64,000 nucleotides of DNA. Origin: an uncultured Clostridia bacterium. Lineage in GTDB: Bacteria; Bacillota; Clostridia; Christensenellales; Aristaeellaceae. The notes under the pieces are model-generated. The model was not told the origin of the DNA, did not search any database, and saw nothing but the letters and a program-made list of their open reading frames with translations. The position numbers and the translations under genes are program-made. Numbering within the stretch: position 1 is the first letter of the stretch; each line of letters starts with the position of its first letter. Shown one piece after another: positions 39,811 to 63,282 of this stretch. The stretch spans positions 51,926 to 115,925 of the forward strand of contig CAMJUL010000001.1 of the NCBI GenBank assembly GCA_946408995.1, read 5' to 3'.

Positions 39811-40930
39811 TTAATGTGTCATTAGAACCCGTTTCGTCAGAGAAACCATGCGCGGCAGGCACGCATCAAAGAACATCCGATAGCTTTGGCAGAAGCGGTT
39901 GTTGCTCGGAAGCCCCTCACAGAAAGGCTCCCTGTCTCGGCGACAGCCGCCCATGCAAAGGTTTAAATAAGGGCAGCGTCCACATGCTTCAGGAAGACGC
40001 AGCGATACCTGACGAAAAGCCTTTGATGCGGAATTTTTTTCCATCCGCGCAAGAGACATCGTATTGATATTGCCCATTTCCCATTCATCCAGCACGTAAA
40101 AATCACAGGGATACACGCTGCCATCTGCTTCGGCCAGGAAGTACAGCCCGCACTGTCCGCACATGCCGCATTCTTCGGGCGCAAACCCCGCGAGGATGGA
40201 CAGATAATTATCAAGCCGTCTTTCACTGACCGGGCTGCCTTCTTTGAACGCTCTTTCATAAGCATCAAAGATATCGATCAGAAACTGGCCATCATCGGCA
40301 ATACGCTTCTGGGGAAAGCGAGTATGGGTTATGGCTGCCATCCAGTCCGTCTATGCAGGGGATAAACTGCAAATATTGATGTTCCCGCAGCGCATTCCAG
40401 GTTTCCTGGCTCCGGCGCGCCGTTTCCGCTGTGACAACGCAAAGAATGTTATAAGGGATCCCAAAGTGACGGAGCTTTTCAATGGTACGCATTACGCGGC
40501 GGTATGTGCCGCATCCCCCGGCGTCTTTTCGGAGCGCATCATGCATGTCCTCTGGGCCGTCCAAAGAAACGCCTAAAAGGAAATGGTGTTCAGCAAACAA
40601 AGCCAGCATTTCGTCACTGACAGCATAGCCATTGGTTTGCAGCGCATAAGAAACCGGGAGATGACGGCTGTTGCACCGATGGACTTCGCGAAGAAAACTC
40701 TGGAAATATTCGATTCCCGCCAGCGTGGGCTCGCCGCCCTGAAAGGAGAATGAGACACTGCTGTCAGCGTAAATAAACGCACGCCGGACCAATGCACGCA
40801 TTGTGTCCGGCGTCATGACGCCATAATTTGGAATACGCCTATGGGCGGCTACATCCGCATAAAAACAATTCTGGCAGCGCATATTGCAGGCCGATGAAAC
40901 CGGTTTGATCATCATGCTGAGAACTGGCAC
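39811..40930 (-). pseudogene. Anaerobic sulfatase maturase (anSME, radical SAM), split by a frameshift near 40300
   Basis: MIKPVSSACNMRCQNCFYADVAAHRR...FSFQGGEPTLAGIEYF (40292-40930) plus CGMCGQCGLYFLAEADGSVYPCDFYVLDEWEMGNI ... CGRCPYLNLCMGGCRRDRE (39811-40341) in a different frame. Confidence 0.88.
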
Positions 40931-40984
40931 ACAAAGCCCTCCTGTTTATTCCGCTGTTTTTTCTGCTTTCAGCAGGGGCATATA
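40908..40984. repeat. Left copy of imperfect ~76-bp direct repeat bracketing the carbohydrate module
   Basis: atcatcatgctga...aaagccct...ctttcagca..ggcatata shared with 57894-57968. Confidence 0.75.
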
Positions 40985-42892
40985 GACGCCGCCCTGCACG
41001 CTGCGGGCGATGAACGCCACGAAACGGCCCGTTTTGGTGTCGTACCAGTCGGAGAAGGGCACCCGGGTGGGTGTTTCCCGCAAATAGCGGGCCAGCGGCG
41101 CGATCAGGGCCTGGAAAACGTCCGGGCTCTGTGCCATGGAAGCGGACCATACCAGCCAGTCCGACTTCGTATAATCCGCCCGGGAATCCAGGGGCAGGCC
41201 GTAGGCGTTCATGCGGCCCAGGTAGCTGCGGGTTTCACGGTCATAGAATTCCTTCGGCAGCAGATTCAGGTTCAAAACCTGATCCCATACCAGATTGTAT
41301 TTCATGCTCCAGCCGATCCCATCAAAGGTGAGGGCTGTAGCGTCCGGCGTTTTCGCCCGGTCAAGCCAGCTTTGCGCCATATCTTTCGCTCGCTTTTCCC
41401 AGCGGTCCGCCTCCTTGTGCTTTTCCATCCTGCACAGCAGCCGGGCGTAGCAGGCAACGCCCACAATGGCTTTGGCGGAGAGGTTCACGTTCCGGGCCAG
41501 ATGTCCGGCGAAGTCGTCCGTGCAAAGCTGTTCGCCGGGGTCTTCACCGTAGGCATCCAGATAGCGCACCCATTTTTCCAGCAAGGCGGCATACTGCCGG
41601 ATCAGCTTATCTTCCGCGCCGAAGGCCAGGGCGGCTTCCAGCATAATGAGCATATTGCCGCATTCCTCTACTGGCATCTGATAACGGGCGTCGTATACGT
41701 CCGTCCCGGCGGGATACAGGTAATAGGGCAGTGGCGTTGTGCCATTTGGCCTATGCTGCCTGGCGGAGTACACCTGGCCGGTGGCATACGGATACCGGCC
41801 CACGTCGTGCGGCGCGAAATCCTCCTGCCATACGGGGAGAGAGGCAAAGCGCAGAACGGGGCGGCACAGGGCGTTGACCAGCTCTGGACAGAATTTGAGG
41901 AACAGGGGAATAGAAGGATAGCTCACGTCCACCGTGCCGATGCAGCCGTTGGAATCGTTTTCTTTTGACAGGAAAGCCATTTCCCCTTCCGGCGTGGCGA
42001 TCAGCTTATGGGCGGCGTAGGTATGCCGCCAGGCTGCCGCGGCAAGGAGAGCGTAATCCTCTCCGCCGATTTCGCGGGCTTCGGAAAGCACCTTTTCATC
42101 CAAAGCGGCGCAGGCGCTTTGGAAGTGATCGTGCCGACCGGCAAATTCCGCCAGGGCCTGGGGCATGGTTTTTCCATCCCGGAAGCCCCAGGCTTTGCAG
42201 CAGGAACCGAAATAGTTGATGGAAGCAATGTCGTCGTAGCCCAGCATCAGGAAACCCTTTGCAGGCGCGTTCCCGACTTTGGCTTCTGCGGCAAACCGCA
42301 GGCCGCCGTTTTCCAAGGTCACTTTCCCCGCCGAAGCCATGTACAGATAGCCCCAGTCCATGGTGATGTGGTCGCCGGAATGGCCCAGCACCCGCTGCTG
42401 CGTCTGGCCGATGAACGCCATGTGAAGCGCATCCCAGGAAAACTGATCCCCCTGCATCGGCGGCTGAACGACGCCGTCATAGCAGAGGGCGGCGGAAGCG
42501 AAGAAGCGCAGGGAAACCGCGTGTTCTTTTCCATCGACAGAAACGAGGGAATAATCCATAAATGTGATGGGCGTGGAAAGGGCGTCCAGATCGTCCGGCA
42601 GGGCGGGTGACCAGAAGGATACTGTCAGCTCCACCCCAGCAGCCGCCATAACGCTGACCGTTTGGGTGGGCGTCACTCGCAGGGCTTTGGTTTCCATAGC
42701 CGGGCGGGAGCTTTGCCCTAAAAAGACATATTCCTTCCCATCGATTGCGATGTGTCCGTCCAGGTGTTTGGGCGCGCCCGACCAGTGAACGGGACAGGCG
42801 GAAGTCAGCGTGTCTCCCGGCATCCAGATGGAAAAATAGGGGTCGTTGGCGATCAGCGGCAGCGCGGGAAGACGGTCCAATTTTGCGTTCAT
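40946..42892 (-). CDS. DUF4965/DUF5127 glutaminase A-like protein
   Basis: PALPLIANDPYFSIWMPGDTLTSACPVHWSGAPKHLDGHIAIDGKEYVFLG; YMPVEECGNMLIMLEAAL. Confidence 0.85.
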   Translation of the reverse strand: MNAKLDRLPALPLIANDPYFSIWMPGDTLTSACPVHWSGAPKHLDGHIAIDGKEYVFLGQSSRPAMETKALRVTPTQTVSVMAAAGVELTVSFWSPALPDDLDALSTPITFMDYSLVSVDGKEHAVSLRFFASAALCYDGVVQPPMQGDQFSWDALHMAFIGQTQQRVLGHSGDHITMDWGYLYMASAGKVTLENGGLRFAAEAKVGNAPAKGFLMLGYDDIASINYFGSCCKAWGFRDGKTMPQALAEFAGRHDHFQSACAALDEKVLSEAREIGGEDYALLAAAAWRHTYAAHKLIATPEGEMAFLSKENDSNGCIGTVDVSYPSIPLFLKFCPELVNALCRPVLRFASLPVWQEDFAPHDVGRYPYATGQVYSARQHRPNGTTPLPYYLYPAGTDVYDARYQMPVEECGNMLIMLEAALAFGAEDKLIRQYAALLEKWVRYLDAYGEDPGEQLCTDDFAGHLARNVNLSAKAIVGVACYARLLCRMEKHKEADRWEKRAKDMAQSWLDRAKTPDATALTFDGIGWSMKYNLVWDQVLNLNLLPKEFYDRETRSYLGRMNAYGLPLDSRADYTKSDWLVWSASMAQSPDVFQALIAPLARYLRETPTRVPFSDWYDTKTGRFVAFIARSVQGGVYMPLLKAEKTAE

Positions 42893-42924
42893 GTGTACCC
42901 TCCTGTGATTGACAATTTTTTATT

Positions 42925-43776
42925 TTATCCCTTTAATCCCTGTGTGCTGATCCCTTCCACCAGCTGCTTCTGGAAAAAGAAGAAAATGATCAGAATGGGC
43001 ACCAGGGAAAGCACGGACATGGCGAATGTGGCCCCGTAATCGGCCTGGGACGAATCGTTGAACATTTTCAGCGCGTAAGCCACCGTGTACATATGGGGCT
43101 TGTTCAGATACAGCAGCGCGCCCATGAAATCTTCCCAGCTGCCCATAAAGGTGAGCACGCTGACGGTGACGAGGGAAGGAACGATCAGGGGCAGAATGAT
43201 GCGCACGAAAGAAGAATACTTGCCGCAGCCGTCAATGGAAGCCGCCTCGTCCAATTCAAACGGAATGGTGCGGATGAACTGCATGATGAGGAAAATGTTG
43301 AAGCCGCTGCCGAAAAAGGCCGGAACCGTCATGGGCAGAAAGGTGCCCACCCAGCCCATTTCATTGAACAGCACGAACCGGGGAATCATCATCACCTGGC
43401 CGGGCAGCATCATAGTCACGATCATGGCGGTAAACCAGAATTGACGGCCCCTGAACCTGATCCGCGCGAAGCCGTAAGCCACCACGGCGGAGGAAAGCAT
43501 CATGCCCAGGGCGGAAATGACCGCCACCAGCAGGGAATTGCTGAAGAACCGGCCGAAGGTGTAGCCGCCAAATCCCCGCCATCCCGTGGTATAGTGTTCA
43601 AAGCTGGGCGAATCCGTCAGGAGTGTAGAAGCCTTGGTGAATATTTCGCCGTTGGGCTTTACGGATGACGCCGCCATCCACAAAAGCGGATAAATCATGA
43701 GCAGGCTGAACAGCAGCATCAGCCCGTGATAAACCGTCAGGCTGATCCGCCTTTGTACTTTCAAATTCGTTACCAT
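42925..43776 (-). CDS. Carbohydrate ABC transporter permease (MalG-type)
   Basis: IPFELDEAASIDGCGKYSSFVRIILPLIVPSLVTVSVLTFMGSW. Confidence 0.92.
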   Translation of the reverse strand: MVTNLKVQRRISLTVYHGLMLLFSLLMIYPLLWMAASSVKPNGEIFTKASTLLTDSPSFEHYTTGWRGFGGYTFGRFFSNSLLVAVISALGMMLSSAVVAYGFARIRFRGRQFWFTAMIVTMMLPGQVMMIPRFVLFNEMGWVGTFLPMTVPAFFGSGFNIFLIMQFIRTIPFELDEAASIDGCGKYSSFVRIILPLIVPSLVTVSVLTFMGSWEDFMGALLYLNKPHMYTVAYALKMFNDSSQADYGATFAMSVLSLVPILIIFFFFQKQLVEGISTQGLKG

Positions 43777-43782
43777 GATCTG

Positions 43783-44706
43783 TCACCTGCCTTCCGATTC
43801 GTAGTACACCCAGGCGCTGGAGGAACGGAAAATCAGCGCCGTAAACGCCGCGATGACCAGCAGCATGAACCAGGCCATGGCGCTTCCGTAGCCCATTTCA
43901 TAGTGATTGAAAGCGCGGTTATACAGATGTACGCCGTAATAAAGCGTGGTATTGAGCGGCTTGCCGCCGGTGATCAGGTAACTGGAATTGAAGGCCTGGA
44001 AGGAGCCGATCACCTGATTGATGAGGTTAAAAAACAGAATGGGCGTGATCATGGGCAGGGTGATGCTGAAAAAGCGCCTGACGGGTCCAGCACCGTCCAC
44101 GATCGCCGCTTCGTGGAAGCTGGCCGGAATATTTTTGATCGCAGCCAGAAAAATCAGCATGGAACTGCCAAACTGCCATACGCCTAAGGAAATCAGCACG
44201 CCCAGAGCAGTTTTCGGGTCACCCAGCCAGCGCTGGTTGGAGGGAAGCCCCAGCATGCCCAGCGCCTGGTTGATGACGCCGTTAAAGGCGAAAAGCTGCT
44301 TCCACAGCAGCGCAATGGCCACCGAGCTTCCCATCAGGGAAGGGATGTAGAAAGCGGCGCGGTAATACGAGGTGAGCTTCGTCCCCCTGGACAGCACCAG
44401 CGCCACCAGCAGGGACACTGTCAGCTTCACCGGCACCTGGATCAGGGCGAATTTGAACGTGACCCAGAAAGAAGTCCAAAACAGTTTGTCCTCATAGAAC
44501 ATTTTGCGGAAATTGTCCAGCCCCACCCATTTGGCGGGAGAAAGCACATTGTACTCCGTGAACGCCAGGTACAGGGAGGTAAAGAACGGGATCACCGTGA
44601 ATACGAGCAGCCCGACGATAAACGGCAGAATAAATACATAGCCCGCCACATTGGGCCTGTTCATTCTTTCCCTGAGCGTCAGGCTCCGCGGCGCGTTTTT
44701 TACCAT
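43783..44706 (-). CDS. Sugar ABC transporter permease (MalF-type)
   Basis: YVFILPFIVGLLVFTVIPFFTSLYLAFTEYNVL; IPASFHEAAIVDGAGPVRRFFSITLPMITP. Confidence 0.92.
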   Translation of the reverse strand: MVKNAPRSLTLRERMNRPNVAGYVFILPFIVGLLVFTVIPFFTSLYLAFTEYNVLSPAKWVGLDNFRKMFYEDKLFWTSFWVTFKFALIQVPVKLTVSLLVALVLSRGTKLTSYYRAAFYIPSLMGSSVAIALLWKQLFAFNGVINQALGMLGLPSNQRWLGDPKTALGVLISLGVWQFGSSMLIFLAAIKNIPASFHEAAIVDGAGPVRRFFSITLPMITPILFFNLINQVIGSFQAFNSSYLITGGKPLNTTLYYGVHLYNRAFNHYEMGYGSAMAWFMLLVIAAFTALIFRSSSAWVYYESEGR

Positions 44707-44783
44707 GAAGAACGCCTCCTTCGGTTCTCTGAAAAAGCGCGCCAGAGGGGATGCCCCTGGCGCGTCGAAAGCACAATTTGTCT

Positions 44784-46064
44784 TTATTGGGCTGCCTGAG
44801 CCGCGGCAAGGATGGCATTGGCTTCTTCGATAAACTGCTGTGCGGTCCCAAGCAGATCGTCGATCATTTCATAGCGCACCTGTTCAGAATACTGACCCAG
44901 CAGCTCGGCCACCTGGGAGTGCACGGTGGGATCGGGATTCATGAGGGGAGAAGCGTTTCCGGGCTGGCTGGCGTATTCGATGAACGCGGCTACCTGCTGG
45001 CCCACTTCGTCCAGATTGCCGGAAACATGGGCGCGCATTTCGCTGGAAATCGGAATGGCGCGTTCCACGCCGATGATGTCAAAGCAATCAGGATCGTTGG
45101 TGAAGAAGTTCAGGAACTTGATGGCGGCGTCCTTCTTTTCGCTCTGCTGCGCCACGCACCAGAACATGGAGGGCTTCAGATAAGTGGCGGAAGCGGTGGC
45201 GTCGTCCAGGTTGGGAATCTGCACCATGGAAATATCCAGGCCGGTGGCGTCGCGGTAAGCGGCCAGCTCGTTGGAATTCTGGAAGCGGGACCAGGAATCG
45301 TTCACCATGGAATCAAAGGCGGTGGCGGCGGTTTCTTCGCCGGGGATCATGCCCCAGCCCTCATGCTGGGCGTCCAGGGCGTCCTGCCACATATCCACGA
45401 TATACTGGGGATCGTCAAAGCCCAGGGCGGAAGCGTCGTCATTGTACAGGTTCAGGCCGTAGTTGCGCAGGCGGAAGCGGAGGATATCGGCGGAGCAGTC
45501 GGTGATAAAGGTGCTGCGCAGGCCGGTGGCTTCCGCGACCTTCTTGGAGATTTCCTTGTATTCGGTCAGGGTGGGCGTCATGGGGATCTCAATGCCTAAA
45601 TCGTTCAGCACATCCCGGCGGTACATCATCACGGGCGCGTTGGTGCCGGTGGAAATGGCGTAGGTAACGCCCTTTACCTGGCCGGTTTTGATGATGTTTT
45701 CGGAAACGTTGCTCACGTCCAGCGCGCCGCTGGCCATGTATTCATCCAGGGGAGCAAGCACATTGTTGGTGGCATACTGAGCCAGATAGGCGTAGTCCAT
45801 CTGGAAGATGTCCGGGGTCTGTCCGCCGGCGACCTGCGCGGCCAGCTTGGTCCAATATCCGCCCCAGTCGGAATAGTCCATGACAAGATCGATTTCCGGG
45901 TATTTTTCTTCAAACTTTTCGATCATGGCCACCGTCAGGTCATGGCGGGTCTGGGAACCCCACCACAGGATGGTCAGCTGGGTCTTTTCTTCAGCGGATA
46001 CCGTGGGCATCGCCAACGCGCAGATCAGCAGCGCGGCGAGCAGCAGAGTCAGGAAACGCTTCAT
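44784..46064 (-). CDS. Extracellular sugar-binding protein
   Basis: Signal peptide; TQLTILWWGSQTRHDLTVAMIEKFEEKYPEIDL. Confidence 0.9.
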   Translation of the reverse strand: MKRFLTLLLAALLICALAMPTVSAEEKTQLTILWWGSQTRHDLTVAMIEKFEEKYPEIDLVMDYSDWGGYWTKLAAQVAGGQTPDIFQMDYAYLAQYATNNVLAPLDEYMASGALDVSNVSENIIKTGQVKGVTYAISTGTNAPVMMYRRDVLNDLGIEIPMTPTLTEYKEISKKVAEATGLRSTFITDCSADILRFRLRNYGLNLYNDDASALGFDDPQYIVDMWQDALDAQHEGWGMIPGEETAATAFDSMVNDSWSRFQNSNELAAYRDATGLDISMVQIPNLDDATASATYLKPSMFWCVAQQSEKKDAAIKFLNFFTNDPDCFDIIGVERAIPISSEMRAHVSGNLDEVGQQVAAFIEYASQPGNASPLMNPDPTVHSQVAELLGQYSEQVRYEMIDDLLGTAQQFIEEANAILAAAQAAQ

Positions 46065-46150
46065 AGGGAAGGGCACCTCCTTATGTATTTTGTGCCCCCA
46101 TTATAAACAGGCGCGGGCAAAAAGAAAATTCAATAATTCGATGCGAATGG

Positions 46151-47185
46151 TCACTTTTCCGACATACCGTCCATTCTTGCCCGGTATTCTTTCGTGGTCA
46201 CCCCCGTGTATTTTCGGAACATCTGGCTGAAGTAATGGGGATTTTCGCCCATGCCCACCCGTTCGGCGATTTCATAGCTTCGCATATCCCGGCAGGCCGC
46301 CATCATTTCTTTGGCGTGTTCCATGCGGATTTTCAGCAGATAAGCTGAAAACTTCTGTCCCATGCAGCGGGTGAATTCCCGGCCGATATAATCCGCGTTC
46401 CGAAAGAGCACCCGGTCCGCGATGTATTGCAGGGAAAGCGTTTCGTTCATGTAATGCCCGTTCACGTAATCCAGCATTTTCTGAACGAAATCCCGAACGC
46501 CTCCATTTTCTCCCCGAAGCTGCATAAGGCGTTTGGCCATGATGGGGATCGGGTTTTCCGGGGCGTGCAGCACATCCTGAATGACGGAAAACGCCCATTC
46601 CGCGTGGGACGCCCCCGCGCTGTCGGTCAGGACGCCCAAAAACGCGTCCCGCAGCACGCTGATGTCCTGCACCGTTTTTTCGATTTCAAAGAGCTGTTTT
46701 TCGATAGCGGCTCCATCCTGGCCGCTTTCGGCCCATTCGTTCATGAGCCCCATCAGCCTGCCCACCTGTTCCTCTCTTTCGCCGCTCAGCTGCAGCGCCC
46801 GCTCCCTTCGCCGGGTCACTTCTAAGCCGGCATGTTTGAGCGCCAGCTCCATTTCTTCTTTGGAACAGGGTTTCAGCAAATATTCCTTCACGCCGTATTT
46901 CATGGCTTGCCGGGCGTATTCAAATTCGCTGAAGCCGGAAAGCACCAGCACCTCCAGCATAGGATTCAAAAGAAGCGCTTTCTCGATGAGCTCCAGGCCG
47001 TTCATGCCCGGCATGCGCACGTCCGTCAGCAGGATATCCGGCATATCGTCCATCATGCTGTCCAGCGCGGAAAAAGCATCCGGGCAGCTGGCGGTGAGCA
47101 CAATGTCCGCCGTCTGCCAGTCCACCATGGCGCTGATGCCGTCCCGGATGATGCTCTCATCATCCACAAGCAAAAGCTTATACAT
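46151..47185 (-). CDS. YesN-type response regulator (REC + AraC HTH)
   Basis: MYKLLLVDDESIIRDGISAMVDW; PDILLTDVRMPGMNGLELIEKA; AraC C-terminus. Confidence 0.92.
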   Translation of the reverse strand: MYKLLLVDDESIIRDGISAMVDWQTADIVLTASCPDAFSALDSMMDDMPDILLTDVRMPGMNGLELIEKALLLNPMLEVLVLSGFSEFEYARQAMKYGVKEYLLKPCSKEEMELALKHAGLEVTRRRERALQLSGEREEQVGRLMGLMNEWAESGQDGAAIEKQLFEIEKTVQDISVLRDAFLGVLTDSAGASHAEWAFSVIQDVLHAPENPIPIMAKRLMQLRGENGGVRDFVQKMLDYVNGHYMNETLSLQYIADRVLFRNADYIGREFTRCMGQKFSAYLLKIRMEHAKEMMAACRDMRSYEIAERVGMGENPHYFSQMFRKYTGVTTKEYRARMDGMSEK

Positions 47186-48944
47186 GTCCGCTTTCCCCTT
47201 TCGCCCCGTCCAAGGTTTTGGGCAGGCGGGCCGTAACGCGGGTTTTCCCCGGTTCGCTGCTGACCTGGAGGCCGTACTTTTCACCGAAGGTGTGCTTGAT
47301 GCGCTGGTCGATATTCCGCATCCCAATGCCCATCCCCTCGGCCTTCACTTCTCCCCGTTCCAGCTTGTTCAGAATGTCCTCGTCCATGCCGGGACCGTTA
47401 TCCTCGATGGTCAGCAGGATCTCGCCGCCCTCCTGACGGCCTTCGATCAAAATACGGCAAATATCCGTCATTTCTTCCACTGCGTGGTGCACCGCGTTTT
47501 CCACCAGCGGCTGAATGGTCATGGCGGGCACCAGACAGACTTTGATTTCCTCCTCCACGTCAAAGCGCACCTGCATCCGTTCCATATAGCGGATTTCCTG
47601 GATGCGGATGTACGCTTTCGCGGTTTCCAGGTCCTGTTCCACCGTCACGATATCCCGTTTATCGTTCATGGAGGAACGCAGCATCTTTCCCAGCGATTCC
47701 GTCATCACGGCGATCCGGCCGTTTCCTTCCTGCTGCGCCAGACAATAAATGGATTCCAGCACGTTATTCAGAAAATGGGGCCGCACCTGCGCCCGAAGCT
47801 GCTGCATCTGTTTTTCCTGCAAAAGCTGTTGCTGTTCAAAATTCCGTTTCATCATCAGGTGGTAATCCCGCGCCATCCGGTCAAAATGGCGATGCAGCCG
47901 GCCCATTTCATCCCCTCTGTCCCGGTAGGGGGAAGTGCCCAAATCCTCCACGTGGCCGTTTACAGCAAAGGCGTCGAATTTATCCACCAGCCGCCGCAGG
48001 TGTTTGAGTAAGGAATCCGCAAGCAGCATACTCAGCAGCAGCGCCACCGCCACGATGATCCCGTCGATCACCCACGTGCGCAAAGCTACCCGGTCGATGG
48101 TGGCGCTGATGCCGCTGTAATCGATCAGTGTCACATACCGCCATCCGTTGGATGCCGTATACCGGACGCAAAGCAGGTCTTCTCCGGGCTGGCGTATGCG
48201 TTCGTAGCCGTCCTCGCCGGGCGTGATCTGCCGGACCCGCTCGTTCCCGGCATATAGGCAAATACCGTCTTCGCTGTAAACGGCGCAGGTCAGGGGCGTG
48301 CCCAGGGCGTTCAGCGCATGCAGCCGGTTTTCAATGATCGTTTTCAGGTCCAGCTCAATTTGCAGGGTGGCCAGGGTATCCAGGGTCAAACCCTCCATTT
48401 CCCGGATTTCCCGCAGCAGGAACAGGTGGGTCATTTCACCGTCGCGGCTTTCCAGACGCCAAACGGCGCGGCCCTCATGGTTTGCCGCGTCCTGGATGCG
48501 CTCGGGCAGCATATCGGAATCCGGCACATAGGCGTTGCGGAAAAACCGGCTGAAGGTGGTGCCCGCCGGGGTCTTCAATTGCAGGCTGAAGCCGCTGGAA
48601 AACCACAGGGAAAAATTCGCCATGCGGTCGGCAACCTCATTTTTTGCTTCCACCCATGCCGTGGTGTTGATGGGCAGGCGTTTGAGCAGGCCCAGGTTTT
48701 TTTGCAGCACGTTATCGGATAGAATGCGCATGGAAATTTCCTGCACGTCGTCCAGCTCGCTTTGTATCTGCCCGGCGAACAGCGTGATCACCTGCGTGCT
48801 GCTTTGATAGAGCTGCCGGTCATAGGCTTTATAGGGCATACGAAAAGTGGCCAGTACCCCGGAAAGCACCAGAAGCATGGCCAGCGTCAGGATGAAAAGA
48901 AATTTCGTCCTTACTTTGATATTTCTCCAGATATGCTGAATCAT
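47178..48944 (-). CDS. YesM-type sensor histidine kinase
   Basis: LRAQVRPHFLNNVLESIYCLA; MTIQPLVENAVHHAVE; IEDNGPGMDE. Confidence 0.92.
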   Translation of the reverse strand: MIQHIWRNIKVRTKFLFILTLAMLLVLSGVLATFRMPYKAYDRQLYQSSTQVITLFAGQIQSELDDVQEISMRILSDNVLQKNLGLLKRLPINTTAWVEAKNEVADRMANFSLWFSSGFSLQLKTPAGTTFSRFFRNAYVPDSDMLPERIQDAANHEGRAVWRLESRDGEMTHLFLLREIREMEGLTLDTLATLQIELDLKTIIENRLHALNALGTPLTCAVYSEDGICLYAGNERVRQITPGEDGYERIRQPGEDLLCVRYTASNGWRYVTLIDYSGISATIDRVALRTWVIDGIIVAVALLLSMLLADSLLKHLRRLVDKFDAFAVNGHVEDLGTSPYRDRGDEMGRLHRHFDRMARDYHLMMKRNFEQQQLLQEKQMQQLRAQVRPHFLNNVLESIYCLAQQEGNGRIAVMTESLGKMLRSSMNDKRDIVTVEQDLETAKAYIRIQEIRYMERMQVRFDVEEEIKVCLVPAMTIQPLVENAVHHAVEEMTDICRILIEGRQEGGEILLTIEDNGPGMDEDILNKLERGEVKAEGMGIGMRNIDQRIKHTFGEKYGLQVSSEPGKTRVTARLPKTLDGAKGESGHV

Positions 48945-48978
48945 AGCGCCTTATTTCTTTTTTGTGTTGGGGACGGGT

Positions 48979-50097
48979 TTACTTCAGATACAGCGCTTCC
49001 GTCAGCGCCAGAGCCGTGAGAGACTGGCCGTAGGCCATAGGCCGGATCAAAATATCTTTATAGTGCTGGGCGTCCATGCCCATGCCCGTACCGGCGGACA
49101 CATTGCGAACCAAACCGTCGTCGTCCACGTAATCGAGCAGCGCCTCTACTGCTTTCTCGGCTGAGGGCAGATAGGTTTCATCCAGATAACCAAAGCGAAT
49201 GCCTGCCAATATGCCTGCCGCAACAGCGCCTGACCCGGAGGTCTCCAGATAAGAGCTTGGATCGGTCAGGATGGTATGCCATAAGCCGCAGGGATCCTGC
49301 GCCTTGATGAGCGCGTCCACCTGGTTTTTCCAGGCGTTGAGAATAAAGCGTTTGTCCGCGCCGCTGATATGGCCCTCCATGGCTTTCAGGAACATGACCG
49401 CCCCATAGGTGAACCAGGAATTACCCCGGTTCCAGAAGATACCGCCGAAATTGCTGTGCTCTTGGAAGGTCCAGCCATGATAGAGGAAACCGGTGCGGTT
49501 GTCTGCCAAATACTTAATGTGGAGCAGGTATTGGTAAACCGCTTCGTCGATCCATTCCTGATTATCGCGGCGCACGCCCATCTTGCCAAGGAACAGCACG
49601 GCCATGAACAGGGTGTCGGCCCAAAGCTGTTCCGGGTTCCGCCACACATCGTTCCGATCCGTGCCATGGCTGGTCACGTGTTCAAAGCCGCCCATCTGGG
49701 TCTTCGGCAGGGCATGAACCAAATAATCCGCCCGTTCCTCGCACAGCGCTTCCCATTCCGGCAGATCGTAGCGCTCCGTCAGGTCGAACAGGGTAAGGAA
49801 GGGAGCCGTGGTGTTGATATTGACGGAAGGCAGGCCGATGGACAGGTTGTCTTTCACCCATTGGAGCAGGAATGCGTCGTAGTCCCGGTTCCCTCTGGAC
49901 GCCTGCAATTGCAGCAGGCCGTACAGGCCCACGCCTTGGGGCCAGTCCCATTCTTTGATGCCAAAATCCCTGGCGAACATGCCCTTTTTCCGGTCTTCCT
50001 TGGAGGCGTTTTTGGCAGCCTCCGCATCAGCGGCGTCCAGATGCATGAGCTTATGGATGACCAGATCCAGTTTCTCGTTCAGCAACTTCTTGTCCAT
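48979..50097 (-). CDS. GH105/GH88 unsaturated uronyl (rhamnogalacturonyl) hydrolase
   Basis: WGQGVGLYGL-like WDWPQGVGLYGLLQL; THGTDRNDVWRNPEQLWADTLFMAVLFLGKMG; NRGNSWFTYGAV. Confidence 0.88.
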   Translation of the reverse strand: MDKKLLNEKLDLVIHKLMHLDAADAEAAKNASKEDRKKGMFARDFGIKEWDWPQGVGLYGLLQLQASRGNRDYDAFLLQWVKDNLSIGLPSVNINTTAPFLTLFDLTERYDLPEWEALCEERADYLVHALPKTQMGGFEHVTSHGTDRNDVWRNPEQLWADTLFMAVLFLGKMGVRRDNQEWIDEAVYQYLLHIKYLADNRTGFLYHGWTFQEHSNFGGIFWNRGNSWFTYGAVMFLKAMEGHISGADKRFILNAWKNQVDALIKAQDPCGLWHTILTDPSSYLETSGSGAVAAGILAGIRFGYLDETYLPSAEKAVEALLDYVDDDGLVRNVSAGTGMGMDAQHYKDILIRPMAYGQSLTALALTEALYLK

Positions 50098-50186
50098 GGT
50101 TCATTCCTCACAATCACGATGAAGGATGCTATCGTTTTTTATTTTCTTTGATTCGTAAACCATAGTATTTCATTCTTCATGATCTG

Positions 50187-51197
50187 TCAATACACGATTT
50201 TTGTATCTCTCTTCGAGTCTTCTTCCAGGCACAGAGCAATCAGATCGTCGATCTTCGCCTCGGCCAGGGCGATCACTGTATCCGCCGCTCCGTAATAAAT
50301 CCGCAGCCTGCCGTCCGGCATGGGGATAGCTGCGGTGGGGAAAATCACGTTGGTACGGAAGCCCTCTTTCGTTTCATAATCCGCTTCCGGGGCCAGCAGC
50401 GGCACCCGGCTATGCCCGATCATTTTCCAGGGCGCATCTTTATCCAGCAGGATCGCGGCGGCGCAGTACCGCTTGGTCCACTTGTCCTCCCAGCCGTTTT
50501 TGCCGCGTTCCGGATCGATGTCCACCGTATGGGTCACGGCCAGCCAGCCTTTTTCCGTGTATACGGGCGGCGCGCCGGGGCCGATTTTATCGTTGGCGAA
50601 AGGAAAATCTTCCACCCCTGCCACCAAATGGGAATTGCCCCAGTGGATCAGGTCTGGGCTTTCGCTCCACCAGATATCGAAGCGATCCCTGCCCCGGCTG
50701 TAGACGGGCATGGGACGTTCCAAACGTATGTACATCCCCTGGTATTTTTGGGGAAACAGCACCATATTCCGGTTATCCGGCACCGTCATGGAAATCACGT
50801 CGAAATGGTGCAAATCGTCCGTATGGGCGATGCCACCCCGCAGGCCGTGCCCAGTGTCCACGGCGAAGGTCATGTAGACTTCGCCGTCGATCACCGTAAG
50901 CCTCGGATCGTAGGCCCGCTTGATTTCCTCGTCTTTCAAGGAAAAAACGGGCTGCGGCTCCACTTGCCAATGGATGCCGTCCGGGCTCAAGGCAAGGCCG
51001 ATGTTGGTGCCCGAAAAGGAGGCCCTTCCCAAATAACCGTAATCGTTGCGAAAAACCATGGCGTATCCGCCCTGCCAGGGGATCACGCCCGCGTTGAATA
51101 CCAGGTCGCTGGCATACGGTACCTGCTTGCCAGTCAATACGGGGTTCTGAGGATACCGGGAAATACAGGAATGTGAAAAGAGCTGTTCTGTTGGCAT
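50187..51197 (-). CDS. GH130 family glycoside phosphorylase/hydrolase
   Basis: NPVLTGKQVPYASDLVFNAGVIPWQGGYAMVFRN; AYDPRLTVIDGEVYMTFA; YYGAADTVIALAEA. Confidence 0.9.
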   Translation of the reverse strand: MPTEQLFSHSCISRYPQNPVLTGKQVPYASDLVFNAGVIPWQGGYAMVFRNDYGYLGRASFSGTNIGLALSPDGIHWQVEPQPVFSLKDEEIKRAYDPRLTVIDGEVYMTFAVDTGHGLRGGIAHTDDLHHFDVISMTVPDNRNMVLFPQKYQGMYIRLERPMPVYSRGRDRFDIWWSESPDLIHWGNSHLVAGVEDFPFANDKIGPGAPPVYTEKGWLAVTHTVDIDPERGKNGWEDKWTKRYCAAAILLDKDAPWKMIGHSRVPLLAPEADYETKEGFRTNVIFPTAAIPMPDGRLRIYYGAADTVIALAEAKIDDLIALCLEEDSKRDTKIVY

Positions 51198-51217
51198 GAG
51201 GTCCAGCCTTCCTTCCT

Positions 51218-51808
51218 TTACTCCATTGCGTCGCGGATGGCCCGCGCCGCGTGACGCGCTAATACCGTATAGCCTGTTTCAGTAAAATGCACCCAGTCCG
51301 CTCGATCCGAGGAGGGGATCAGACGCGAGGCTTCATCCAGTCGGTCGAGGCCCACGCCCTCGTCCGCCATGACGCGGCAGGCGATGCGGTTGTATTCGTC
51401 GATTTCCGCCTGGGTGCGCATGGGCACGCCCCGCTGGAATTTCGTCATGGATGCATCGATGCCGGTGGTCAGGGCAAACAGGATTTTTGCGTTGGGAAAC
51501 ACCGTCCGAATTCGTTGGATGATCCGGCGCAGGGTGGCTTCGTACACGTCCGGCGGCACCAGAGGCAGGGGATCGCCTTCAAAATGGCACACGTCCCATA
51601 GGCCGTTGTTCCAATGTACCAGGTCGATTTCCTCCGGGCGCGCGTCTATCATCTGCTCCGCCCAGGTATGCAGAAAGCACAGGGTATTCAATGAAAAACG
51701 GCAGTTTTCCTCCGGAAAATGCACGCCGGCGAAACCGGCCAGCAATTCCCGCACCAATTCGCCGTAGCCCAACCGGATGGAGTCGCCCAACAGGTAAACA
51801 TGTTTCAT
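51218..51808 (-). CDS. SGNH/GDSL hydrolase
   Basis: VYLLGDSIRLGYGELV; LVHWNNGLWDVCHFEGD; DWVHFTETGY. Confidence 0.88.
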   Translation of the reverse strand: MKHVYLLGDSIRLGYGELVRELLAGFAGVHFPEENCRFSLNTLCFLHTWAEQMIDARPEEIDLVHWNNGLWDVCHFEGDPLPLVPPDVYEATLRRIIQRIRTVFPNAKILFALTTGIDASMTKFQRGVPMRTQAEIDEYNRIACRVMADEGVGLDRLDEASRLIPSSDRADWVHFTETGYTVLARHAARAIRDAME

Positions 51809-51874
51809 AAGTTCCCCGAAAGGGAGGATCATCCCGAAAACGCGCGCGATGATCCTCCCTTTTTCCTTTATTTG

Positions 51875-53377
51875 TTACTTATTGATGCCGGAAGCGCGGA
51901 TCACGTTCATCATGGGCTCGCAGGCGGGCACATACACGTTCTGCAGGTAGGAGGCCATTTCCTCCTCGGTAATCTGGCCGCAGATGTACTGGGTGATCTT
52001 TTCGTTCCGTTCGCTGTACACGCCGTCGTTGGTCAGCTTGGTGGATTCGTCGTTATAGCCGGGAATGGTGCCTTCGCCTAAGTAGGAGATGCGGTATTCC
52101 AGGGAGCTGACGAAATCGTTGGCCGCCATCCAGTTGGCTAATTCAACTTCATTGGTGGAAGTGCCGCCCGCGATGATCATATCCTTGTTGGACAGCTGAT
52201 AATTGATGGTGGCGTAGGAGGCGCACCACTGGTCCGCCAGGGCGGTCTGTTCGGGGGTCAGGGTGATCACGCGGGTTTCTGGATCGAGGGATGTATAGGT
52301 CAGGCCTTCGATGCCCTTGAACAGCAGGGTCACGCACTCGTCAGTATAGCCGTCGTCCAGCACGCGCAGGGTCTCTTCGATGTGCTCGCTGTCCGCGTTG
52401 ATGGCATAGCCGCCCCAGACCTGGGGAGCGTAATACACGCCTACCTTGTCCGCGCCTTCCGGCAGCAGGGAAGGACCGGCCACCACGGTGCCTTCCGGGT
52501 TCACAGCCACAAAGGTGGCGTTGGCGGCCCACTGGGTCACGTGGTTGATGATGATGTCGGTATACAGCGCGCCGATCTTGCCCGCGAAGAACTTATCCTG
52601 ATCCTCGTAGGACTGGGTCAGATACCATTCGGGATCCAGCGCGCCGTTCAGGTACATGTCCCGCAGCCAGGTGAGGTACGTCATATAGCCCTCCTGGCCT
52701 TCCATCACGGTGTATTCGCCGTTTTCATCCGGCACGTCGCTGGGGCGGAGGCCGAAAGCGTGGATCAGGTTGCGGTCGTTGAAATTGCGGATGGAGAAGC
52801 CGTAGGTGTCGTCAATGCCGTTGTCGTCGGGGTCCTGTTTGGCGAAGGCCAGCATGACGTCCGCGAATTCCTGGGCGGTCTTGGGCACTTCCAGACCTAA
52901 CTTTTCCAGCCAGTCGCCGCGATAGGTGATGCAGTCCAGGGGCTTGGTCTGCACCCGGGGCAGGCTGTACAGCCGTCCGTCCACCAGGCAGCCCGCCAGT
53001 TCGTCCTGGGTGAGCACCTTGCAGGCGTTGGGCATGATTTCGGGGGTGAGATAATCAGTCAGGTCCAGCAGCAGACCGTCCCGGGCCCACTGCTGATAGG
53101 TATTGTTCAGGTTCTGAACGTAAATCAGGTCGGGCAGATCGTCGCTGGCCATGACCACGTTCAGCCGGTCGGAATAATTGCTGATGGGCGGCGCTTCCAC
53201 TTCGATGATCACGCCGGTGCGGTCGCCCCAGGCGGCGATCACGGGGTTGTCCTCCACGATGTACGCGGCGGGCAGACGCTGGATCATGGTGATGGTCACC
53301 TTGTCCTCAGCCAGAGCCGCCCCCATGCAGGAGAGGGCAAACAGCAAGGCCAACACGATACTCAGAGTCTTTTTCAT
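51875..53377 (-). CDS. Extracellular solute-binding protein (LplA-type)
   Basis: Signal peptide MKKTLSIVLALLFALSCMGAALA; large SBP fold upstream of LplB/LplC permeases. Confidence 0.9.
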   Translation of the reverse strand: MKKTLSIVLALLFALSCMGAALAEDKVTITMIQRLPAAYIVEDNPVIAAWGDRTGVIIEVEAPPISNYSDRLNVVMASDDLPDLIYVQNLNNTYQQWARDGLLLDLTDYLTPEIMPNACKVLTQDELAGCLVDGRLYSLPRVQTKPLDCITYRGDWLEKLGLEVPKTAQEFADVMLAFAKQDPDDNGIDDTYGFSIRNFNDRNLIHAFGLRPSDVPDENGEYTVMEGQEGYMTYLTWLRDMYLNGALDPEWYLTQSYEDQDKFFAGKIGALYTDIIINHVTQWAANATFVAVNPEGTVVAGPSLLPEGADKVGVYYAPQVWGGYAINADSEHIEETLRVLDDGYTDECVTLLFKGIEGLTYTSLDPETRVITLTPEQTALADQWCASYATINYQLSNKDMIIAGGTSTNEVELANWMAANDFVSSLEYRISYLGEGTIPGYNDESTKLTNDGVYSERNEKITQYICGQITEEEMASYLQNVYVPACEPMMNVIRASGINK

Positions 53378-53431
53378 GGGGATACCTTCCTTTTGCTTTT
53401 TTATTTCCACGCCATCCGGCGCTGGATTCCG

Positions 53432-54385
53432 TTAAGAATAGAAAGAGGGCTGACCAAGTTTTTGTGCGATCAGGTTGGAGGAAAACACCAGTACGGCCCC
53501 CACCACGTTTTTGAACAGGCCCACGGCGGTGGAATAGGAATACCGGCCTCCGGCGATGCCCACTTGGTACACGTAGGTCTCGAACACTTCCGCCACGGAC
53601 TGGTTCAGGTTGTTTTTGAACAGGAAAATCTGCTCAAAGCCGTTGTTCATCAGGCCGCCGATGGCTAAGATCAGCATGATCACGATGGTGCCGGAAATGC
53701 CGGGCAGGGTGATATACAGCGTCTGCTGGAAGCGGTTGGCCCCGTCCACCTTGGCTGCCTCATAGTATTCGGGATTGATGGCGGTGAGGGCGGAGAGGTA
53801 AATGATGGTGCCCCAGCCCGCCTCCTTCCAGATATGGGAGCCGATGATCACCGTGCGAAACCAATCCACGGAGCCGAGAAAATTGATTTTCTGCCCGCCC
53901 GAGGCGGCGATCAAATCGTTCACAAGGCCGTCCGTCATGCTCAGCATGTTCACCACGATGCCACCCAGCACCACCCAGGACAGGAAATGGGGCAGGTACA
54001 TGAGCGTTTGCGCCATCCGCTTATACACCTTGGAGCGGATTTCGTTGATCAGCAGCGCCAGGATGATGGGCACCGGGAAGGAAAAAATCAGCCGGGTGAT
54101 GCTCAAAAACAGGGAATTGCGCAGCACGCGGTAAAAGATCTGGCTGCCGAACAGCTCCTGGAAATTGGCGAAATTGTTGAAGGGACTGCCGAAGATGCCC
54201 TTCTTGAAGCTGAAATTCTGAAAGGCCATCATGATGCCGTACATGGGCACATAATGGAACAGGATCAGGTACACCAGTCCCGGTATGCACATCAGGTACA
54301 GCCAGCGCTTTTTCCAAATATACCTTTTCAGGCTGTTCCTTTTTGTCAAGGGTGTCGGCACCCGTTGATTGATGGTTTTTTCCAT
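53432..54385 (-). CDS. Sugar ABC transporter permease (LplB-type)
   Basis: WLYLMCIPGLVYLILFHYVPMYGIMMAFQNFSFKKGIFGSPF; NPEYYEAAKVDGANRFQQTLYITLPGI. Confidence 0.92.
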   Translation of the reverse strand: MEKTINQRVPTPLTKRNSLKRYIWKKRWLYLMCIPGLVYLILFHYVPMYGIMMAFQNFSFKKGIFGSPFNNFANFQELFGSQIFYRVLRNSLFLSITRLIFSFPVPIILALLINEIRSKVYKRMAQTLMYLPHFLSWVVLGGIVVNMLSMTDGLVNDLIAASGGQKINFLGSVDWFRTVIIGSHIWKEAGWGTIIYLSALTAINPEYYEAAKVDGANRFQQTLYITLPGISGTIVIMLILAIGGLMNNGFEQIFLFKNNLNQSVAEVFETYVYQVGIAGGRYSYSTAVGLFKNVVGAVLVFSSNLIAQKLGQPSFYS

Positions 54386-54398
54386 TGATTTTCCCTCC

Positions 54399-55283
54399 TC
54401 ATTCCTTCACGCCGCCCAGAGCCAGGCCGGTCATGAAATACTTTTGCAGGAAAGGATAAATACACATAATGGGCACCGTAGCCACCACGATGGAGGCCAT
54501 TTTCAGCAGGAAAGGCGTGGACACCCGCTCGTCCATGGCCGTCATTTCGTTGACGGCGGATTCAAACAGCAGTTCCCGCAATACCAGTTGCAGGGGCCAG
54601 TTGGCCCGCTTGGTCATATACATGATGGCGTTAAAGTAGCTGTTCCAGTATCCCACGGCGGTGAACAGCCCCAAGGTAGCCAGGATGGGTGCGCTCAAGG
54701 GCAGTACGATGCGCACCAGCACCACCAGGTCGTTGGCACCGTCGATCAGCGCCGCTTCTTCCAGGGAACCGGGCAGGCCCTGAATGTAGTTCTTCATCAG
54801 GATCAGGTTATAGCAGCTCACCAGTCCGGGCAGGATCAGGGACCAGCGGTTGTTCAGCAGCCCCAAGGTGCGGATCAGGAAGTAATTGGGGATCATGCCG
54901 CCGGAAAAGAACATGGTGATGATCCACAGGGTCATGTACACGTTCCGGCCCTTCAAATCCTTTTTGCTTAAGGGATAGCCCGTCAGCACCAGCACGATCA
55001 GGGACAGGATGGAGCCGAAAAACGTGATGTACAGCGTGTTTCCGTAGCCCGTCCAGATATACCGGTAATTGGTCACCATCCGGTAAGCGTCCAAGGTCAG
55101 GCGGGAGGGAAAGAAATCGAAATGGTTTTTCAGGTACAGATCATAGGGCGTGAAGGAATAGATGATAACCAGTAAGATCGGAATAAAGCACAGCAGCGCG
55201 AATACCCCCACGATCAGATGGGAAAAACCGCTGATCACGTATTCATCCGCCGTTTTCCGCACCGCGCTTCTCTTTCCCGGCAT
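54399..55283 (-). CDS. Carbohydrate ABC transporter permease (LplC/YtcP-type)
   Basis: LPGSLEEAALIDGANDLVVLVRIVLPLSAPILATLGLFTAVGYWNSYF. Confidence 0.92.
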   Translation of the reverse strand: MPGKRSAVRKTADEYVISGFSHLIVGVFALLCFIPILLVIIYSFTPYDLYLKNHFDFFPSRLTLDAYRMVTNYRYIWTGYGNTLYITFFGSILSLIVLVLTGYPLSKKDLKGRNVYMTLWIITMFFSGGMIPNYFLIRTLGLLNNRWSLILPGLVSCYNLILMKNYIQGLPGSLEEAALIDGANDLVVLVRIVLPLSAPILATLGLFTAVGYWNSYFNAIMYMTKRANWPLQLVLRELLFESAVNEMTAMDERVSTPFLLKMASIVVATVPIMCIYPFLQKYFMTGLALGGVKE

Positions 55284-55374
55284 CCTGATCTCCGTCCTTT
55301 CATTTCAGATTTGCCATCTTGATTCGTAAAGTAATTTGTCAAGTTAATTTTTGCTTTCGTCAAGTTACGCGCCT

Positions 55375-55403
55375 ATCATATCCCAGATTTTTCCCCTTGT
55401 CAA
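55375..55403 (-). promoter_or_regulatory. Minus-strand promoter for the ABC/PUL operon, -35 within CTTGNCAAG palindrome
   Basis: Minus strand TTGACA-N17-TATGAT; palindrome CCCCTTGTCAAGGGG at 55393-55407. Confidence 0.6.
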
Positions 55404-55467
55404 GGGGTAAAATTGTTTTTTAGGGAAAAAATTTTTCCGTTTTTTCTGTTTATTCGTAAAACAGTTG

Positions 55468-55497
55468 CTTGACAAGTTGCTTTACAGTTGATATAAT
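55468..55497 (+). promoter_or_regulatory. Plus-strand promoter of lacI-type gene, -35 within CTTGACAAG palindrome
   Basis: TTGACA (55469-55474)-N17-TATAAT (55492-55497). Confidence 0.7.
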
Positions 55498-55530
55498 GCT
55501 TTACGGACCTTGACAGAAGGGGGAAATACT

Positions 55531-56535
55531 ATGAGAAACAGAACCGTCAGCATGGATGATATCGCCAAAGCCTTAGGCGTAAGCAAAAACGCCGTCTCTT
55601 TGGCCCTGCGGGGCAAGGACGGCGTGAGCGAGGACCTGCGCCAGAAAATCGCCGCCAAAGCGAGGGAAATGGGCTACGGCCAGGAAAAACAATCATCCTC
55701 CCAATATATCCTCGCCCTCATTCCTCAGCGCAACACCCACCTGTTGGACGGCATGTTTTATCAGCAGGTTTGCTTCCATATGGAATCCTACGCCCGCTCC
55801 AAGGGGTATCTGCTCACCATATGCAGCGTATCGGAGGCGGAAGAAAAAGCCTGCCTGCCCCATCCCATGCTCAAGCAGATGCCCTTCCAGGGCGTGGCCA
55901 CCATTGGCAACCTTGCCAAGGAATACTGCATGCTGTACCGGAATTGCGGCATCAAATATTTAATGGTAGATCAGTATTACGACGATATCCCCGTGGACAG
56001 CATTACCACCGCCAATACCTCCGCCACCTATATGCTCACCCAGCACCTGATCGAGAAGGGCCATAAAAAAATCCAGTATATCGGCCCCCGCAAGCGCACC
56101 TCCAGCCTGTTTGACCGCTGGCGGGGCTACCAGCAGGCCATGGACGACCACGGCTTCCCCGTCCTGACCAATTCCTATGTGGAAGCGGACAGCCGGGACA
56201 ACGGGGACGATTATTCCCTGCTGAAAAGCGCCCTGGACGCTATGGACGAACTGCCCACCGCCTTCGTTTGCGGCCATGACGTGACCGCCAAGCAGGTGAT
56301 CGATATTTTGGGCGCGCAGGGGCTCACGTGTCCCCGGGATTTCTCCGTGGTGGGCTTTGACGACATTCCGATCCCGGAGGTGGCCCCCCTGAACCTGACC
56401 ACCTACCGCACCCCCAAAGCCGCCATCGCCCAGGCGTCCATTGACTGCCTCATTCAAAACGATTCCCGCTCGCCTCAGAAGTTGGAACTGTACGGCGAAC
56501 TGATCTGCCGGGGCAGCGTGCGGGATGTCCGCTGA
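55531..56535 (+). CDS. LacI family transcriptional regulator
   Basis: VSMDDIAKALGVSKNAVSLALRGKDGVSEDLRQKIAAKAREMGYG; FVCGHDVTAKQVIDILGAQGLTCPRDFSVVGFDDI. Confidence 0.95.
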   Translation: MRNRTVSMDDIAKALGVSKNAVSLALRGKDGVSEDLRQKIAAKAREMGYGQEKQSSSQYILALIPQRNTHLLDGMFYQQVCFHMESYARSKGYLLTICSVSEAEEKACLPHPMLKQMPFQGVATIGNLAKEYCMLYRNCGIKYLMVDQYYDDIPVDSITTANTSATYMLTQHLIEKGHKKIQYIGPRKRTSSLFDRWRGYQQAMDDHGFPVLTNSYVEADSRDNGDDYSLLKSALDAMDELPTAFVCGHDVTAKQVIDILGAQGLTCPRDFSVVGFDDIPIPEVAPLNLTTYRTPKAAIAQASIDCLIQNDSRSPQKLELYGELICRGSVRDVR

Positions 56536-56560
56536 ACGATCAAAAAAAGGAGAAAAAGCC

Positions 56561-57877
56561 ATGGATATTTTCTATGATGTGATCGTAGCCGGAGGCGGCC
56601 CGGCCGGTGTCTCAGCCGCCATGGCAGCCGCCCGAAGCGGGGCCAAAACGCTGCTGATCGAAGCCAACGGTTCCTTGGGCGGAACGGTCACCAACGGTTC
56701 TCTGCCCGCCTTCTGCCCCTTTGGCAATACGGACGAACCGCTCATTCAAGGGATCGGTTTGGAGATACTGGAAGCCCTGCGGGCAGAAACAAAGCTGCCC
56801 TCCTATTATGAGGACAGCCCGGAAAAGCCGCTTTATAATTGGTTCCCGGTGGACGGGGAAGCGCTGAAACGCATCTTAGATGACAAGGTGCTGTCCAGCG
56901 GGTGCGAATTGCTGCTGCACGCCCATTTTGTGGGCTGTGAAACGGAAGACGGCGTCATTCGCAGCGTCACGGTGCATACGCCCGGCGGCCTGGAAACCTT
57001 CGCCGCAAAGACGTTCATCGACTGCACCGGGGACGGCGTTCTTTCCGCCGAAGCGGGATGCGAAATCCAGTTGGGAAATGAGGAAGGCTTGGTTCAGTCC
57101 GGCACCCTGTGCTTCAAAATCGCACCCTTCGATACCGAACGTTTTATCCGCTACGCCGAAGAAACCGGGGAGGGCGGGAATCTGCTGCACGCCTGCGCCC
57201 GAGCAATTGCCGACGGCGCTTTTCCGGAAGGAGAAACCAAAGTGGCGGGCATTTCCTTTCCCTATCCGGGCGTGGCCGTGCTGAACTTCGGCCATATCTA
57301 CGGTATTGATCCCCTGAACGCGGCGTCCCTGACCCGCGCCGAAGTGGAAGGAAGAAAAATGCTGCCGGAGCTTTTGCGCTTCCTGCGGAATTACGTGCCT
57401 GGCGCGGAAAACGCCGTAATCGTTTCCAGCGGGCCTAACCTGGGCATCCGGGAATCCCGCCGGGTCATGGGCGATTATGTGCTGACGAAGGAAGATTATT
57501 TCCGCCGGGCTGATTTTAACGACGCCATCGCCTATTATTGCTATCCCATCGATATTCACGCCCTGCGGCCCGGTAAACAGACACAGGAATGGAACGAGCT
57601 CTACTATAACCGGCGCTATCAGCCCGGCGAGGCCTACGGCGTCCCCTACCGCTGCCTCACGCCCAAAGGCATAAAAAACCTGCTCACAGCCGGAAAGATC
57701 ATCAGCTGCGATCAGATCATGTTAGGTTCCGTCCGCGTGGTTCCCTGCTGCTTCGCCACCGGCCAGGCCGCCGGTACCGCCGCCGCCATGGCCGCCCGGT
57801 CAGATATTTCCGTCCGGTCCGTTGACCCAACAGTCCTGCGGGATTCCCTGAAGCGGAAAGGCTGCTTCTTAAGATAA
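56561..57877 (+). CDS. FAD-dependent oxidoreductase
   Basis: DVIVAGGGPAGVSAAMAAARSGAKTLLIEANGSLGGTVTNG; KNLLTAGKIISCDQIMLGSVRVVPCCFATGQAAGTAAAMA. Confidence 0.92.
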   Translation: MDIFYDVIVAGGGPAGVSAAMAAARSGAKTLLIEANGSLGGTVTNGSLPAFCPFGNTDEPLIQGIGLEILEALRAETKLPSYYEDSPEKPLYNWFPVDGEALKRILDDKVLSSGCELLLHAHFVGCETEDGVIRSVTVHTPGGLETFAAKTFIDCTGDGVLSAEAGCEIQLGNEEGLVQSGTLCFKIAPFDTERFIRYAEETGEGGNLLHACARAIADGAFPEGETKVAGISFPYPGVAVLNFGHIYGIDPLNAASLTRAEVEGRKMLPELLRFLRNYVPGAENAVIVSSGPNLGIRESRRVMGDYVLTKEDYFRRADFNDAIAYYCYPIDIHALRPGKQTQEWNELYYNRRYQPGEAYGVPYRCLTPKGIKNLLTAGKIISCDQIMLGSVRVVPCCFATGQAAGTAAAMAARSDISVRSVDPTVLRDSLKRKGCFLR

Positions 57878-57893
57878 AGGGACGTGACGGGCA

Positions 57894-57968
57894 ATCATCA
57901 TGCTGAAAGTTGGAACAGAAAGCCCTTTCTGTTTTTTTGCATTTTTCAGCTTTCAGCAAAGGCATATA
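57894..57968. repeat. Right copy of imperfect direct repeat; decayed remnant of the DUF4965 C-terminus / anSME N-terminus junction
   Basis: Minus strand still encodes YMPLLKAEK and, in another frame, VPTFSMMI (cf. YMPLLKAEK and VPVLSMMI at 40908-40984). Confidence 0.7.
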
Positions 57969-61105: not shown

Positions 61106-61384
61106 TTCGTTCCTCCCTCCTTTCTGGCTCCTCAGAGCCTTTTTCTGGTTTTCTTTCGCAAAAGAGAACGATGCCCGCAGGCATCCAGCCCCCGGCAAAG
61201 CTGCCAGTGGCAGGTTTGCCCAAGCAGTTGCAGGCATGAGCATCATGCCGGAATCTGCCGAAGGCAGAGGTCAACTGCACAGCCGATGCTCGTTCTGTCT
61301 CTGGCCAGAACGACATTGGCTGAAAGGCGTCCGCAGACGCCGCATCCCCCTCGGAGAGCGCACGGCCCGACCAACGGGAGGGAT

Positions 61385-61421
61385 ACCACCGCCCGAAGGG
61401 TGGTGAGTAAGTGCGCCCTTC
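61385..61421 (+). other. oriT with MobQ-type nic site TAAGTGCG/CCCT preceded by inverted repeat
   Basis: ACCACC GCCCGAAG GGTGGT hairpin then gag TAAGTGCGCCCTT; matches the RSF1010-family nic consensus; next to relaxase gene. Confidence 0.85.
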
Positions 61422-61470
61422 GGGAGATAAGAAACGGAGCGCCTCAGGTTACCCCGAAACGCCCCGTTCG

Positions 61471-61668: not shown

Positions 61669-61844
61669 AATCGTCAACTCCCTCTGTTGAAATGCTTGGT
61701 TTCTCTCCATATCGCAAGTCCTTTTCTGCTGATTTGCGATAAAACGGCAGAAAAAAAGCGACAATGTTTGTTCGGATGAAAAGTAACAGCGCCGCTTTCA
61801 AGAATCCTGCCAATTTGAGTTTGAAATATGCAGGATTGGCAGGA

Positions 61845-63226: not shown

Positions 63227-63282
63227 ATGCTTTCCTTTCCGCCGTATAGATCGGCTTTCAAATTGATGTTTGGGTATAGAAA

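Follow-up and report, generated by a model that had tools for sequence, protein, structure and literature searches.

Rearrangements that leave direct repeats around a block of genes are familiar from several systems. In one, genes are duplicated in tandem or as a segment, and a copy then decays into a pseudogene. Campbell-type single-crossover integration leaves the incoming block between direct repeats of the site at which recombination took place, and both transposon target-site duplications and the attL/attR sites of an integrase place direct repeats at the two edges of a block. At a smaller scale, template switching is described in the extracts considered of two reports (PMC8794818, PMC7202029) as perfecting imperfect palindromes into hairpins.

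Here we describe two repeats of 76 bases in a Clostridia genome of rumen type. They flank a 17-kb block of genes for sugar use, and the right one is an ordinary duplication-and-decay scar. The analysis concerns one stretch of 64,000 nucleotides (the window), the end of which is also the end of its contig, in a metagenome bin of 129 contigs with 2% contamination. The features between the two repeats and at the left junction are as follows.

39811..40930, minus strand: anSME, a radical SAM anaerobic sulfatase maturase, which starts with GTG and is frameshifted once near codon 212
40908..40984, minus strand: left repeat copy, comprising the last DUF4965 codons, the ribosome-binding site and anSME codons 1-8
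40946..42892, minus strand: DUF4965 / GtaA six-hairpin gene, intact, 648 aa (PF16335, E=4.6e-115)
42925..48944, minus strand: kinase, regulator, binding protein and two permeases upstream of DUF4965, in the order seen in locus L054 and in Gemmiger-type loci
48940..57878: GH88, GH130, GDSL, binding protein and two permeases (minus strand), LacI and FAD oxidoreductase (plus strand), 87-93% identical in nucleotides to stretches of the genus g30
57894..57968, minus strand: right repeat copy, a decayed DUF4965 tail and anSME start with GTT at the start codon

The repeat pair and the left junction

A sequence-only reading had proposed that the two intervals align nearly end to end with about three quarters of their bases identical, and that shuffled controls should tell this from background. 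Both expectations were borne out. Local alignment of 40908-40984 with 57894-57968 gave 79% identity over 78 columns, with 12 substitutions and 3 gaps totalling 4 bases, and the similarity starts and stops abruptly at both edges. The alignment score was 71; the best of 5000 shuffles reached 29, as did the best match in the remainder of the window. Within its own 3.5-Mb assembly, the sole other significant BLAST match of the left copy is the right copy (E=2.8e-10), and these scores rule out chance similarity. When 100 genomes (its own and relatives) were searched, the right copy had no substantial match except the left one, other matches covering at most about half of the 76 bases at E 3e-4 or worse, and no copy of the scar was found in the viral contigs searched. 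A mobile repeat family is likewise ruled out, as the genome holds two copies and the relatives none.

The same genome carries a second DUF4965 gene (G000:C7:2833-4764, locus L105), the protein of which is 81% identical and which lies in a different transporter operon. The right copy scored at most 27 against the DUF4965 ends of this C7 paralogue and 14 other loci, and at most 26 against 29 other anSME starts, compared with 71 for the left copy; such far lower scores rule out the paralogue or another DUF4965 locus as its source. The window's other long direct repeats, 937-2181 and 11929-13128, are two diverged GH43 paralogues with 71-78% identity.

The left copy is indeed the junction between DUF4965 and anSME, as had been read from the sequence; the description of this junction as live is uncertain on the anSME side, because that gene is frameshifted near codon 212 in the assembly. 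It was recovered as two tblastn pieces in different frames, both matched in register by NCBIfam NF010321, and the frameshift reflects either a pseudogene or an assembly error. Most of the 29 other anSME genes share the start pattern M-P-P-x-x-x-(M/L)-(I/V)-K-P, and the GTG at 40930 is therefore likely to be the true start. An anSME start following DUF4965 was seen in none of the other loci inspected.

The kinase-DUF4965 half of the window is 72-82% identical to L051 and L054, and its permeases are 90-92% identical to those of L054. No GH43 gene lies between permease and DUF4965 in the 42925..48944 region; one is present at that position in L054 and absent from Gemmiger-type loci.

The remnant on the right side

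The right copy was proposed to be a decayed version of the same junction, and this agrees with what was found: its anSME piece has no start codon (GTT), and gaps interrupt both the DUF4965 tail and the spacer. The remnant is larger than the repeat alone, however, which is all that had been recognised. Homologous context extends about 500 bp further to the right, into a GH43 fragment, and beyond it the flank has been rearranged again.

57986..58474, minus strand: GH43 glycosidase, last 162 codons, an open frame with no frameshift, 57% identical to residues 298-458 of the L054 GH43
58475..59125, minus strand: AAA ATPase, first ~217 codons, fused in frame to the GH43 end, 48% identical to genes elsewhere
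59475..63815, minus strand: mobile-element DNA (MobQ relaxase, ParM-like), 88-91% identical to g30 genomes

In L054, from a Clostridia genome of roe deer rumen, a GH43 gene (PF04616, E=1e-47) separates the second permease from DUF4965, the operon being similar to 40946-48944 in other respects; this intact permease-GH43-DUF4965 order matches the scar side, and in L051 a GH43 tail likewise directly precedes DUF4965. Read on the minus strand, the right side of the window runs through the GH43 end, its stop, TTCCTGAAGTAAAAGGAT, ATATGCCTTTGCTG (the DUF4965 tail) and the anSME start, and by this reading is the end of an operon minus its DUF4965 body. Since the GH43 end and spacer occur in the remnant as they do in the relative, it represents the 3' end of a second operon copy. 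The usual marks of a pseudogene remnant are all present: genome-wide similarity to a gene elsewhere (E=2.8e-10), broken and truncated frames (the GTT start, three gaps and the absent DUF4965 body), and neighbours in the order of the parent operon, with GH43 end and spacer before the DUF4965 tail as in L054.

The ends of the deletion fall at ATAT. The L051 spacer (GGATATCTATG) and the DUF4965 tail share this motif, an indication that the DUF4965 body was lost by a microhomology deletion. At L051 162-1334, the start of a kinase is fused in frame to the GH43 tail directly upstream of DUF4965, and at L106 14655-15242 a truncated binding protein occupies the same position. Given these two loci, deletions adjoining DUF4965 seem to be frequent.

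The minus-strand open reading frame at 57986-59125 is a chimera of the first part of an AAA ATPase and a GH43 C-terminus, and should therefore not be annotated as one ordinary gene. Homologues of the ATPase in other genomes of the family are open frames of ~630-700 codons. The C-terminal part missing from the window's copy was looked for next to the module and not found; the AAA gene has therefore not simply been split by the module.

Origin of the module and proposed order of events

The genes from GH88 to FAD have homologues in G321, G323 and G225, which belong to g30, another genus of the same family. This homology does not continue past the stop codon of FAD, which lies 16 bp short of the scar; the sequence-only reading had rightly placed the scar beside this stop. 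In G323, the FAD gene adjoins a putative dnaA-like gene, recognised from its sequence. In G225, similarity reaches the first kinase codons and then stops, suggesting that GH88 and the kinase operon were once neighbours and that G225 lost the latter. As the GH88...FAD genes of g30 genomes lie on short contigs only, the unity of this block with the kinase operon rests on the one junction in G225. Among the DUF4965 matches in the family sample there are no g30 genomes.

The MobQ/ParM-like region at 59475-63815 is present in several g30 genomes and is a recently exchanged mobilizable element. With 48940-57878 also g30-like, the scar has DNA of foreign type to its left and to its right. Immediately to the left of the module, 36181-37908 (minus strand) encodes a large serine recombinase with Resolvase, Recombinase, zinc ribbon and DUF4368 domains. 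The 36-41 kb interval has almost no match in congeners, and the recombinase region may thus mark the left part of a mobile island, of which the MobQ/ParM region may be the right part. An Rfam pemK RNA motif (RF02913, 40.7 bits) lies at 38308-38416 (minus strand) near an XRE-family regulator gene. The final 52 bases of the contig, 63949-64000, recur at 98-100% identity in many genomes from several genera, usually at the ends of contigs, and presumably belong to a group II intron, a multicopy repeat that broke the assembly.

The identity of the right half to g30 (87-93%), the in-frame chimera at 58474 and the 2% contamination of the bin would fit an assembly chimera, in which a g30-like genome contributed the right part of the contig and the scar region was joined wrongly. 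We hold this to be improbable: a misjoin would not create a 79% match to the genome's own left copy alone, and dS to g30, 0.23-0.45, is too high for contamination by the species sampled.

The explanation we prefer, with modest confidence, is a tandem duplication of the stretch from the FAD stop to anSME codon 8, followed by the near-complete loss of one copy. It predicts direct repeats flanking the module, a join at 57878-57894 and no spare 3' end of anSME. The point at which g30 homology ceases, the FAD stop some 16 bp away from the scar, is where such a join would be expected. The identity and uniqueness of the repeats speak for it, as do the GH43 end, ribosome-binding-site spacer, DUF4965 tail and anSME start lying in L054 operon order. 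Only a single anSME, and no spare 3' part, occurs in the window.

We infer that the ancestral minus-strand operon would have been kinase-regulator-binding protein-permease-permease-GH43-DUF4965-anSME, with the GH88...FAD block beside the kinase. A duplication bounded by the FAD stop and anSME codon 8 would have brought that codon of one copy into direct contact with the FAD end of its neighbour. Thereafter, the outer copy would have lost its DUF4965 body between the ribosome-binding site and the tail, probably at the ATAT microhomology, and everything upstream of GH43 codon ~297 would have been replaced by the AAA ATPase gene fragment and mobile-element DNA, while the inner copy would have lost GH43. 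The scar would now sit between convergent genes, where it may terminate FAD transcription.

Against tandem duplication stand the loss of GH43 that it requires in the inner copy, the failure to find an intact tandem pair or an intermediate in any relative searched, the dependence on G225 for the unity of the 17 kb, and the presence of an undecayed GH43 part beside a decayed repeat. In these relatives no module-free site was found either, and congener matches to the left flank are single genes on separate contigs. Moreover, single-crossover (Campbell-type) integration predicts an identical final structure. In that case, circular DNA with the module and a DUF4965-anSME end would have entered a resident GH43-DUF4965-anSME locus, the resident DUF4965 body being deleted later. 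This would explain why GH43 is found in the outer copy only, and why permeases directly precede DUF4965, as in Gemmiger-type operons, in the inner copy only; foreign-type DNA on both flanks of the scar would fit as well. It requires, however, that the incoming DNA had an anSME start following DUF4965, which none of the other inspected loci shows, and the kinase-DUF4965 genes were not seen among the g30 genomes sampled. We rank it second, as a tentative possibility.

The sequence-only reading had the module inserted or duplicated at an ancestral DUF4965-anSME junction. One of the two was evidently involved, but plain insertion into the anSME of a resident DUF4965-anSME locus, with the right copy as the 5' side of the cut gene, is disfavoured and very improbable. 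Such an insertion would account for the way in which the right copy breaks off at anSME codon 8, immediately beside the FAD end; the remainder of the cut anSME should then lie beyond the left end, where the only anSME has a complete start, and it is this lack of a spare 3' part that weighs against insertion. Under each of the three mechanisms, the DUF4965 deletion and the AAA/GH43 fusion would later have reduced the outer copy.

Returning to tandem duplication, its relative age can be judged only roughly, because one copy is under coding constraint. The copies differ at 12 of about 74 ungapped columns. For the window's DUF4965, dS is 0.60 to the sister species, 0.90 to the C7 paralogue and 1.05 to L051. 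As the copies have diverged less than DUF4965 has from the sister species, the duplication is probably younger than that split and comparable in order of magnitude to the module's separation from its g30 relatives (dS 0.23 for GH88 to 0.45 for FAD). In the GH43 fragment the frame is preserved over 486 bp, whereas the 76-bp repeat has three gaps, a rate at which about 19 indels would be expected in the fragment. The losses thus occurred at different times, and the GH43 gene probably went on functioning for a time once decay of the DUF4965/anSME end had set in.

The hairpin behind FAD and comparison with described systems

Of the 108 bp that separate the convergent FAD gene and chimeric open reading frame, most belong to the right copy, which contains a predicted hairpin.

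57914..57938, plus strand: 8-bp stem with 4-base loop, then a T run, inside the right copy (-6 kcal/mol, z -2.2)

On the FAD strand, the right copy is predicted to form a nested hairpin of -26.5 kcal/mol with its flanks (z -2.2), which includes this 8-bp stem and T run, and the left copy is without such a hairpin (z +0.9). A consensus terminator scan did not list 57914..57938. When the derived bases or their positions were randomised, an equal or better fold arose in 5 to 13 of 1000 trials, in a test set up after the hairpin had been noticed. The fold, picked as it was after inspection, hints at selection or template switching, and the scar may terminate FAD transcription through this terminator-like hairpin. 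That the decayed junction was exapted as a terminator for FAD, which lost its own 3' flank at the join, and that one or two template switches rather than gradual selection made the hairpin, is unlikely. No description of terminators derived from operon scars was found in the literature with the terms used. If the scar does work as a terminator, it would exemplify, on a small scale, how the debris of a gene can acquire a regulatory function. The locus also provides an example of how a redundant operon copy erodes, and sequence evidence for several of the steps by which a sugar-use cluster was built from a resident operon and a block of other-genus type.

Compared with the template-switching cases in those extracts, the presumed substitutions of the right copy similarly perfect two nested stems that the left copy lacks; the chance level here is 0.005-0.013, and the hairpin was chosen after inspection. 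Direct repeats at the edges and a large serine recombinase at 36181-37908 recall attL/attR sites or a target-site duplication. The repeat, however, is a gene junction in coding register, 76 bp long and with 21% divergence, the recombinase lies outside the repeats, and the homologous context on the right continues into GH43. The attL/attR assignment was rejected, as the pair is a decayed coding junction rather than a short shared core with a recombinase inside the element. Campbell-type integration shares the direct repeats flanking a block, but no circular donor is known and the repeats here have diverged by 21%. Tandem duplication with decay differs in that no intact tandem pair was found here and the outer copy is fused to an unrelated AAA gene; it shares with this locus one gene junction present twice, in direct orientation, flanking the duplicated unit, with one copy mostly deleted and broken in frame.
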